Assembly: GCA_003663225.1 (NCBI GenBank)
Contig: QMZP01000041.1
Location: forward strand, 1 to 6,953
From: Candidatus Aenigmatarchaeota archaeon
GTDB taxonomy: Archaea; Aenigmatarchaeota; Aenigmatarchaeia; QMZP01
Length of the DNA: 6,953 bases
Direction: 5' to 3'
This document shows positions 1-6,953 of this stretch, piece after piece; within the stretch, counting starts at the first letter, position 1; every line of letters begins with the position of its first letter. Under the pieces are notes generated by a model. That model was not told where the DNA came from. It saw only the letters and a list, made by a program, of their open reading frames with translations, and searched no databases. Both the position numbers and the translations under genes were made by a program.

Positions 1-38
1 AGATGAAGCAAAGGCTCAAAGAGCTGGGCTACATGTAG
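1..38 (+). CDS. 3' end of a probable AlkP-superfamily phosphodiesterase (partial)
   Basis: Only the C-terminus is in the window: in the frame starting at base 3 it reads MKQRLKELGYM and then TAG. This is nearly the same as the C-terminus of the complete AlkP-superfamily gene at 4180-5604 (MRQRLKELGYI), with several synonymous base differences. A short basic helix ending in Leu-Gly-Tyr-(Ile/Leu/Met) is, from memory, a frequent ending of predicted AlkP-superfamily phosphohydrolases (COG3379 type). I therefore infer a third paralog extending off the left edge, on the same strand as the glycosyltransferase that follows 29 bp later. No catalytic residue is visible. The call rests on 11 residues plus the local paralogs, so it is suggestive rather than proven. 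Confidence 0.6.
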   Translation, partial: MKQRLKELGYM

Positions 39-4179: not shown

Positions 4180-5604
4180 ATGCCACGGAAACTAGTTATA
4201 GTGGGGTTTGACGGTGCCAGTTTCGATTTCATCAAGCCTGTGATAGATGAACTCCCGTCATTCAAGAAGCTCATTGAAAGGGGTACGCACGGCAGGCTGG
4301 AAAGCACCATACCGCCCATAACCATACCAGCGTGGCCGTCCATGTCAACCGGCCTCAACCCCGGGAAGCTTGGGGTCTTCGACTTCAGGTATATGAACGA
4401 TGATTACTCCTTCCACACCGTTGACGGCTCTGACATCGCCGGGGTCCCTTTCTGGGAGTATGCCGGGAAGAAATACAAGGTGGCCATAGCCAACGTGCCC
4501 GGAACATGGCCCCCATCCGATGTGAACGGGTTCCTCGTGACAGGAATGACAACGCCCGAAGGCAGGGAGTTCACATACCCGAAAGAATTCGCTGGCGAGA
4601 TAGAGTCGGAGATACCGGGATACGCGGACACGTTCGGCGCTTCGGGGAAGGACCCATCAAAGGTCTACATAACCTTTGAGAAGCGGATGCTTCTGCTGGA
4701 GTACCTGATCAAGAAGGACGCTGATGTGCTGTTTTTTGTTTTCCGAATACCGGACGAATTCTCGCATAAGAAGACCATAAGCAAGGAGGACATGCCCGAA
4801 TGCTACAGGACCATGGACAGGGCGCTAGGCAAGATAATCAAGATGTCGGAAGGGTCAAACATCATGGTGGTGAGCGATCATGGTTTCGAATTCAACGAAA
4901 GTGAGCCGTTCTTCGTAAACGACTGGCTGAGGAAGCGGGGATACCTGAAGCTTAAGGGCAGGGCATCCCTTCTTGCAAAGCGGGCACTATTCAAAGCGAG
5001 GAAGAAGCCGGCATACATATACGACCTCATAGACGGCAAGAAGACGAAGGCGTTCTCGTACAACATAAGCAGCGCAAGGTCCTTTGGGGTATGGGTGAAC
5101 ATGGAAGGCAGGTTCAAGGAAGGTGCCGTGAAGGACAGGGAAGGCGTCGTGAATAGCATAGTGAAAGACCTTGCCTCTGATCCCAACATAGAAAGGGTGC
5201 TCAAGGCGGACGACATATACAGCGGCGAAAACAGGAAGCATCTGCCGGATATAGTTGCGTTCTCGAAAGGCCCGGCATATACGACTGTTTTCCCCACAGA
5301 AACGGAAAAGGGCATACACAGCACACACGGCATATTCATAGCCCACGGGCCCGACATAGCCGTGGGCAAGGAGATAGCCAATGCCCGCATAACCGACATA
5401 GCGCCGACCGTGCTTCACCTGCTTGGCATCCGTGTCCCTGACAACATGGACGGCGAACCCCTCGACATATTCGAAGGCAGGTCCGGGATAAGCAGGAAGG
5501 TTTCTTATGTTAAGGCATCAAAAGCGAAGAAAAAAAAGAGTGTCCGTTCAAAGGATGACGAGGAAAAGATGAGGCAGAGGTTGAAGGAGCTCGGTTACAT
5601 ATGA
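4180..5604 (+). CDS. AlkP-superfamily phosphodiesterase/phosphohydrolase (COG3379-like), copy 1
   Basis: This 474-aa metallohydrolase should cleave, or transfer through, a phosphate ester using a covalent phospho-threonine intermediate and two bound metals, normally Zn. Candidate active-site residues in order: D11 in VGFDGASFD; T48 in PPITIPAWPSMSTG as nucleophile; D192 and H196 in IPDEFSH; D233 and H234 in VSDHGF; and H380 in the H-x-x-x-G-I-F motif near the end. PGKLGVFDFR (61-70), VPGTWPP (106-112) and TKAFSYN (289-295) are typical of type I phosphodiesterase/nucleotide pyrophosphatase relatives. No signal peptide is visible, so it probably acts in the cytosol, possibly on a glycan or lipid-linked phosphate (inference). 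The tail from about 446 is Lys-rich (AKKKKSVRSK) and ends LKELGYI, like the partial gene at the left edge. Bases 5327-5414 are identical to a stretch of the next gene. Its last bases form an ATGA overlap with that gene. Confidence 0.9.
   Translation: MPRKLVIVGFDGASFDFIKPVIDELPSFKKLIERGTHGRLESTIPPITIPAWPSMSTGLNPGKLGVFDFRYMNDDYSFHTVDGSDIAGVPFWEYAGKKYKVAIANVPGTWPPSDVNGFLVTGMTTPEGREFTYPKEFAGEIESEIPGYADTFGASGKDPSKVYITFEKRMLLLEYLIKKDADVLFFVFRIPDEFSHKKTISKEDMPECYRTMDRALGKIIKMSEGSNIMVVSDHGFEFNESEPFFVNDWLRKRGYLKLKGRASLLAKRALFKARKKPAYIYDLIDGKKTKAFSYNISSARSFGVWVNMEGRFKEGAVKDREGVVNSIVKDLASDPNIERVLKADDIYSGENRKHLPDIVAFSKGPAYTTVFPTETEKGIHSTHGIFIAHGPDIAVGKEIANARITDIAPTVLHLLGIRVPDNMDGEPLDIFEGRSGISRKVSYVKASKAKKKKSVRSKDDEEKMRQRLKELGYI
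5327..5414 (+). repeat. 88-bp perfect repeat, copy A (in AlkP copy 1)
   Basis: Every base matches 6832-6919 at a constant offset of 1505. The repeat covers the codons for GIFIAHGPDIAVGKEIANA and on to DIAPTVL. The flanking base differs at each end (5326 C against 6831 A; 5415 T against 6920 G). Outside the tract the two genes differ at many synonymous sites; for example, 48 aligned bases near the N-terminus have 12 mismatches by my count. The tract contains an 8-bp inverted repeat, GCCCACGG (5341-5348) with CCGTGGGC (5360-5367), separated by 11 nt. Confidence 0.95.
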
Positions 5605-6953
5605 CCATGCTGCTTATAGGCCTGGACGGGGCCACGTTTGATTTCATCAAGCCCATGATAGAGAAAGGAAAGCTGCCTACCTTCAAAAGGCTGATAGATG
5701 GAGGTGTGCACGGGACACTCAAGAGCACATACCCTCCGGTCACTGTGCCGGCGTGGCCGGCCATGTTCAGCGGAAAGGGCCCGGACAAGCTCGGTGCGTT
5801 CGACTTCAGGTGCATGGACAGCAACTATAGAATAAAGCTGCACGACCGCTCAACGATATGCTGCACGTATGTCTGGGAAATCATGAACGAGAGCGGCAAG
5901 AAAGCAGCCGTGTTGAATGTGCCTGGCACATGGCCGATGAAGCCTGTTGACAAGTACATCGTATCGGGCATGCTCACGCCGCCTGGAAGGGGGTTCGCGC
6001 TGCCCAAAGTCTTGCAGGACAGGATAGAGAAGGAAATACCAGGCTACAGCACAGCGCTCATGGAGAATGGGGACAAAATATCATCATCCTACAGGACCTT
6101 TGAAGCAAGGGCGAGCATGCTAGAATGGTTCCTTCCGAAGCTTGGCAACAGTATTGACTCGATATTCATGGTGTTCAGGGTTCCGGATGTGCTGTCACAC
6201 TCCAGGGACGCTGGCCCCAAAGAGCTGGAAGAATGCTACAAGAGGATAGATGAAAGGTTGTCCACAATACTCGAGAAAGTTGAGGCGAACGTGCTCATAG
6301 TGAGCGACCACGGGTATGGCTTCTCGGAAGGCAGAAAGATGCTTTTCATCAACAAATGGCTTGAAGAGAATGGGTATATCTTCTTTGAAAAGAAACCGAA
6401 CGTATCCAAGAGCGCGATGCGTGCCAGGTCAATGCTTACAGGAAGGCTGGGGAAAGCTGCCAAACCGCTGGTGCGCAGGCTGAAGAACAGGGTACCTGAA
6501 ACCTCCCTTCCATTCGACCCATCCTGCATCGACATGAGAAGAACGAAGGCATTCTCGTACAACACAACCACGTCACCGTATTGCGGCATATGGATAAACA
6601 GAAAAGGCGTATACAAGGACGGTTGCGTGGATGGTGATTATGAACATGTCAGGGACGAGATTATAAGCAAGCTTAAGGCCGAGAACCTTGTGGTAACAGC
6701 ATGGAAGAGGGATGATATATTCCATGTGCACAATGACAGGATGCCCGACATCATAGTGGAAGGCAGGGGCCTGATATCAACAGGCTTCTCTGCTGTCATG
6801 GAGTCAACCTACAAGAGCTGCCATCTCATCAACGGCATATTCATAGCCCACGGGCCCGACATAGCCGTGGGCAAGGAGATAGCCAATGCCCGCATAACCG
6901 ACATAGCGCCGACCGTGCTGCACATGTTCAGCCTCCCCATACCCGATGACATG
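5601..6953 (+). CDS. AlkP-superfamily phosphodiesterase/phosphohydrolase (COG3379-like), copy 2, partial at 3' edge
   Basis: 451 codons are open to the right edge with no stop; by comparison with copy 1 only the C-terminal tail is missing. It starts in an ATGA overlap with copy 1, suggesting translational coupling. An in-frame ATG at 5607 is an alternative, but AAGGAG at 5584-5589 favours 5601. Likely active-site residues are all present: D9 in IGLDGATFD, T48 in PPVTVPAWPAM, D196 and H200 in VPDVLSH, D236 and H237 in VSDHGYG, and H408 in the C-terminal H-x-x-x-G-I-F motif. Between NGYI (257-260) and TKAFSYN (315-321) it has about 22 more residues than copy 1, rich in Lys and Arg, probably a cap region contributing to substrate choice. 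It is thus an in-line paralog with a conserved core and a divergent cap. Bases 6832-6919 are identical to copy 1. The substrate is unknown. Confidence 0.9.
   Translation, partial: MTMLLIGLDGATFDFIKPMIEKGKLPTFKRLIDGGVHGTLKSTYPPVTVPAWPAMFSGKGPDKLGAFDFRCMDSNYRIKLHDRSTICCTYVWEIMNESGKKAAVLNVPGTWPMKPVDKYIVSGMLTPPGRGFALPKVLQDRIEKEIPGYSTALMENGDKISSSYRTFEARASMLEWFLPKLGNSIDSIFMVFRVPDVLSHSRDAGPKELEECYKRIDERLSTILEKVEANVLIVSDHGYGFSEGRKMLFINKWLEENGYIFFEKKPNVSKSAMRARSMLTGRLGKAAKPLVRRLKNRVPETSLPFDPSCIDMRRTKAFSYNTTTSPYCGIWINRKGVYKDGCVDGDYEHVRDEIISKLKAENLVVTAWKRDDIFHVHNDRMPDIIVEGRGLISTGFSAVMESTYKSCHLINGIFIAHGPDIAVGKEIANARITDIAPTVLHMFSLPIPDDM
6832..6919 (+). repeat. 88-bp perfect repeat, copy B (in AlkP copy 2)
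   Basis: Identical base for base to 5327-5414 and in the same reading frame, so both proteins share 29 residues encoded by the same codons. The inverted repeat of copy A recurs here at 6846-6853 and 6865-6872. It lies close to the right edge of the window; divergence resumes at 6920 and continues to 6953. Confidence 0.95.

Follow-up and report, generated by a model that had tools for sequence, protein, structure and literature searches.

A probable gene-conversion tract in two diverged tandem AlkP-superfamily genes of an Aenigmatarchaeota archaeon

Two tandem genes of the AlkP superfamily in a Candidatus Aenigmatarchaeota archaeon share an 88-base tract without a single difference, although the remainder of the two genes is strongly diverged. 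We interpret this identity as a recent ectopic (interlocus) gene-conversion tract, a reading to which we assign a probability of about 0.85. It is favored by the exactness and sharp edges of the tract, the silent divergence outside it, a tree computed without it that separates the two copies, and a second tract in another genome of the phylum (G043).

The tandem genes and their identical tract

The window, i.e. the whole stretch of DNA analyzed, is an entire contig of 6,953 bases (G000:C41) from a MAG of 941,786 bases in 165 contigs, which is 63% complete and has a full-length match to the archaeal SRP RNA on another contig (C9). Open reading frames (ORFs) and Pfam matches identify genes encoding a GT2 glycosyltransferase, a methyltransferase, a B12-binding radical SAM protein and two tandem PF01663 proteins; a 316-aa protein of the window has no Pfam match at E 0.001. 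The left end of the contig cuts a reading frame that terminates in MKQRLKELGYM, resembling the C-terminal ends of copy 1 (MRQRLKELGYI) and of a relative of copy 2 (P0002; MKQRLKELGYI), and this is the probable C terminus of a third AlkP paralog. AlkP-type genes would then occupy both ends of the contig.

The upstream PF01663 gene (copy 1) is complete. Since the window is the whole contig, which ends 34 bases past the tract, the downstream gene (copy 2) is incomplete. The stop codon of copy 1 is overlapped by the ATG of copy 2 (ATGA), so the two genes are probably translated jointly. Profile matches, conserved residues and predicted fold agree in placing both genes in the AlkP superfamily (PF01663 type), with activity and substrate putative. 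All 50 PDB matches listed for the copy 1 structure model (mean pLDDT 87.5) are ENPP/NPP-type enzymes, and in an alignment of 13 proteins D11, T48, D192, H196, D233 and H234 are invariant and H380 nearly so. We take these to be the AlkP ligand residues, His380 of copy 1 presumably being the last metal ligand.

Table 1. Coordinates of the features discussed; positions refer to the window unless a locus (L076) is named.
Feature	Position	Strand	Basis or remark
End of probable third AlkP paralog (MKQRLKELGYM, stop)	3..38	+	Read from sequence; cut by left contig end
Copy 1, complete gene for a putative phosphodiesterase of the AlkP superfamily, 474 aa	4180..5604	+	ORF; PF01663, E 5.5e-40
His380 codon, copy 1	5317..5319	+	Nearly invariant column; just outside tract
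Identical tract, copy 1, codons 383-412, GIFIAHGPDIAVGKEIANARITDIAPTVL	5327..5414	+	Exact repeat, codon statistics
Copy 2, tandem AlkP-superfamily paralog, 451 aa visible	5601..6953	+	ORF; PF01663, E 1.8e-32
His408 codon, copy 2, equivalent of His380	6822..6824	+	Invariant in alignment of four proteins; just outside tract
Identical tract, copy 2, codons 411-440	6832..6919	+	Exact repeat
Copy 2 tail after tract	6920..6953	+	34 bases, in frame, unlike copy 1, leaning slightly to P0002/P0004
G043 conversion-like tract	L076:2859-2965 and 15444-15550		Covers SDHG motif

The perfect 88-base repeat reported in the first-pass annotation was confirmed: 88 of 88 bases agree, the adjoining base differs on each side (extension 0 left, 0 right), and both copies of the tract lie in the same reading frame of the two genes. 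The next longest exact direct repeat in the window spans just 14 bases (4225/5640). The annotation had also described the rest of the genes as diverged at silent sites, citing 12 mismatches in 48 aligned bases of a conserved N-terminal stretch, and this holds as well; the best 48-base N-terminal windows show 11-12 mismatches. Across the 391 aligned codons outside the tract, the genes are identical at 53% of all nucleotides and 41% of third positions, and their codons agree at 70 of the 148 degenerate residues that they share. For the residues of the tract, codons chosen at random would agree in about 43% of cases, so that silent sites outside the tract are near saturation; inside it, 28 of 28 codons are the same.

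Given amino-acid identity, the probability of such a codon match in the tract is about 1e-9 to 1e-10. Shuffling the 419 aligned codons never produced an 88-base run in 10,000 trials (largest run, 33), and shuffling the codons of shared residues never produced 28 silent-identical codons in succession (0/10,000). Chance identity is thus rejected by the codon statistics and the column shuffles, as well as by the survey of homolog pairs described below. When silent divergence is followed along the two genes, with relatives compared at the protein level, it falls to zero inside the tract only, against a diverged background.

In the predicted fold, the tract encodes the last core strand (383-389), a loop, and the start of a helix (404-414); it directly follows His380 and includes none of the residues that we take to be metal ligands. 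It aligns with homologs without an insertion and occurs at two places in the MAG, on which grounds a mobile or in-frame palindromic insertion element was rejected.

Relatives, flanks and alternative origins

Among the best 120 protein matches listed, P0002 (58%) and P0004 (53%) are closest to copy 2. In a tree of 61 of 229 homologs, from which the tract was excluded, copy 2 clusters with these two proteins (support 100/98), and copy 1 lies outside their clade on a branch 1.11 changes per column in length; P0121, a bacterial fragment, is weakly placed (92/58) between copy 1 and this clade. At the protein level, copy 2 agrees with copy 1 at 155 of 387 residues in the rest of the gene, vs. 232/387 for P0002 and 209/387 for P0004. 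In the tract the order is reversed, again at the protein level: 29 of 29 residues are shared with copy 1, 19/29 with P0002 and 18/28 with P0004. Only in the tract, therefore, are the two copies within the genome more alike than copy 2 and its relatives, and the proposal of gene conversion, made in the first-pass annotation from the sequence, is supported by this pattern together with the confined loss of silent divergence.

The 229 homologs are the listed best matches of two protein searches, and 25,336 of their 26,106 pairs had enough columns to be compared. Copy 1 and copy 2 alone among these 25,336 pairs have 100% tract identity; for the 5,497 whose identity elsewhere is 38-42%, mean tract identity is 52%. 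A contig scan for homologs recovered five loci and no more; all were distant and belong to records titled as bacteria.

Over the 40 residues to the left of the tract, copy 2 matches P0002 and P0004 at 15/40 and 16/40 positions, vs. 11/38 for copy 1; over the 11 residues visible to the right, it matches P0002 at 7/11, P0004 at 6/11 and copy 1 at 4/11. Both leans are thin, the counts being small, and the right flank of copy 1 also matches P0002 at 6/11. Copy 2 thus probably combines a tract shared with copy 1 and, on both sides, flanks of its own. The tract is closer to P0002 and to P0004 than these two are to each other (13/28), which leans slightly toward copy 2 as the donor. The age of the tract is loosely bounded: by our estimate, zero changes in roughly 24 silent sites allow a silent distance of up to about 0.12.

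One copy could instead have acquired the tract through recombination with foreign DNA, from a different strain or species, and not with the neighboring gene. The source population probably includes strain variants (see below), and donor and recipient are indistinguishable from the present sequences; however, an exact match to the required donor is present 1.5 kb away, none of the best 120 protein matches of each search is a nearer source, and 0 of 23 other family genomes match the tract in a DNA search (at most 12 candidate places scored per genome), which likewise found no ortholog of the tract. The only other match of that search, in G002, falls at the junction of the two genes, outside the tract. 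We consider a foreign source improbable.

Still less credible, and very unlikely in our view, is selection on the nucleotide sequence (an RNA structure, an overlapping gene or a site) that keeps the tract constant in both copies. This alternative, offered in the first-pass annotation, could draw on an 8-base GC-rich stem in the predicted fold of the tract (5341-5348 with 5360-5367), but the fold as a whole is unexceptional (z -1.25 on the + strand, 0.04 on the - strand), and the tracts of P0002 and P0004 differ even in protein. With an ordinary fold and no Rfam match in the window up to E 1, an RNA element was rejected, as was an antisense gene, no ORF of at least 80 aa lying opposite the copy 2 tract.

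The remaining rival, an assembly artefact, was also raised at the outset. Under this explanation the end of the contig carrying copy 2 was wrongly joined to sequence of copy 1 or of a related gene from another strain. We judge it unlikely, if the least so of the three rivals; the copy 2 tract lies 34 bases from a contig end in a fragmented MAG. From the start of the tract to the contig end is 122 bases, close to the length of the sole exact contig-end overlap found, so that the assembly graph may branch at the edge of the tract; that overlap, between the ends of L062 and L068 (contigs C12 and C18), is 123 bases long, possibly the assembler's k. Strain variation is likely, given that 85 bases at the end of C28 recur at the start of C13 with two differences between them (L091:7481-7565 and L063:3-87).

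Nor is the copy 2 tract represented elsewhere. In the protein database copy 2 occurs only on the 6,953-base contig, whereas the copy 1 and GT2 proteins are recorded with a longest contig of 8,355 bases; second-contig support, at the protein level, thus extends to the copy 1 tract only. In the same database copy 1 is assigned one contig and the GT2 protein two. Searching the other contigs for the missing end of copy 2 returned copy 1 only, with no second contig covering the copy 2 tract, and the only matches to the final 120 bases of the window are the two copies and seven places at chance level (E 0.18 or more).

Against an artefact, the two genes have no other exact word longer than 14 bases in common, so a k-mer collapse would require the tract to be present already. 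The 34 bases past the tract are unlike copy 1, in frame, and encode a family-like end; even with a false join on the left, a gene other than copy 1 would hold the tract with a different tail. The tract of G043, moreover, sits well within a 206-kb contig.

A second tract, a proposed mechanism and precedents

Gene conversion between the tandem copies gains further support from G043, a 91% complete genome of the same class, in which two AlkP paralogs start 12.6 kb apart on one 205,939-base contig. Codons 218-253 of one paralog match the other at 34 of 36 residues; in this tract 30 of 32 codons are silent-identical and nucleotide identity is 96%, vs. 101/220 and 60% outside. The tract contains exact words of 41 and 56 bases and covers an SDHG motif, which we presume to be metal-binding. 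None of 10,000 shuffles gave a 56-base run; the silent run of 19 codons was reached once in 10,000 full shuffles and three times in 10,000 silent-only ones. Having gathered some differences, this tract looks older than the 88-base tract.

Within-genome AlkP pairs were drawn from the 16 of 156 phylum genomes with matches at E 1e-20 or better, giving six pairs in four genomes (three in G000, one each in G022, G127 and G043). Tracts are present in two of the six, the sole two pairs above 32% aa identity; the other four (G022, G127, and C43 of the MAG with each copy) have no tract, their longest common words being 11-14 bases. The case in G043 suggests that conversion recurs in the AlkP paralogs of this phylum.

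In the mechanism that we propose, DNA repair would overwrite a short segment of one AlkP-type gene with the corresponding segment copied from its tandem neighbor. Strand exchange (of the archaeal RadA type) may begin where local similarity would be sufficient, in the conserved codons of GIFIA.GP and DIAPTVL, and halt at the mismatch-rich flanks. Exchange starting at conserved motifs, where identity is highest, would place both tracts in conserved blocks without selection for a homogenized block. Equally possible is an interchangeable core, in which the encoded unit (strand 383-389, loop, and start of helix 404-414) could be exchanged between paralogs; an interchangeable core of this kind has been proposed for RF domain 3 (PMC4530459). 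Conversion may also serve, as the first-pass annotation suggested, to homogenize a functional block.

Partial conversion of anciently diverged paralogs has a precedent in RF1-RF2 of Bacteroidia and Chloroflexi (PMC4530459). There, as here, one block of common function is affected and the remainder of the gene still follows the paralog tree; the RF tract, in contrast, comprises 83-88 residues in a bacterial clade and was recognized by tree signal, whereas the present one comprises 88 bases, is exact at silent sites and comes from one archaeal MAG. Concerted evolution of prokaryotic paralogs is usually ascribed to gene conversion and, as reported in PMC6053082, includes seven archaeal genes, all from methanogens. 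The tuf and mtrA genes discussed there resemble our case in that paralogs of the same genome are more alike than orthologs; unlike those genes, which undergo recurrent concerted evolution, about 94% of the gene is strongly diverged here and one short tract is homogenized. In yeast and rodents, conversion takes place mainly above 80% identity and at a low rate below it (PMC3924818), in contrast to the 53% identity of the partners here outside the tract.

Our search of the open-licence literature found no paper naming this gene family, and on DPANN and gene conversion it returned no title or opening abstract concerned with conversion between such paralogs. Archibald and Roger (2002), going by their title, reportedly described gene conversion in euryarchaeal chaperonins, archaeal paralogs of another family. 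Gene conversion is a known process; the present instance is unusual for how far the partners have diverged, and it is notable that the same family and phylum provide another case.

Two such cases in a single archaeal phylum, with partners that are 53% and 60% identical elsewhere in the gene, suggest that a short conserved block can suffice for conversion, and the lower homology limit becomes testable. Trees or profiles built from such conserved blocks can misdate paralogs. A broader and more tentative idea, which we think rather doubtful at present, is that AlkP-type paralogs of this phylum keep swapping fold-core pieces of about 100 bases beyond the usual divergence limit of conversion, their cores being re-homogenized as the outer regions diversify.

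Repeat background of the source genome

Repeats and paralogs were counted in 41 of the 165 contigs, covering 412,669 of the 941,786 bases (C1-C38, with C1 to base 20,000, and C41, C42 and C43). The 88-base repeat is the longest in these contigs save for the 123-base contig-end overlap, the next being 47, 34, 32, 29 and 24 bases. Among 39 paralog pairs in the same contigs, the longest shared words after the 88-base tract are 29, 23 and 20 bases; this ranking leaves aside one overlap of contig ends and two pairs whose ORFs physically overlap.

Two further repeats were noted in passing. Tandem genes on C10 (L060:6088-8359), which we presume to be FtsX-like from a motif, are 49% identical in amino acids and have a 29-base word in common at KEIGVMKAIG; with no clear silent drop around that word, the pair was not counted as a conversion case. 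On C18 (L068:2025-2075), a perfect inverted repeat has 24-base arms and a 3-base spacer.
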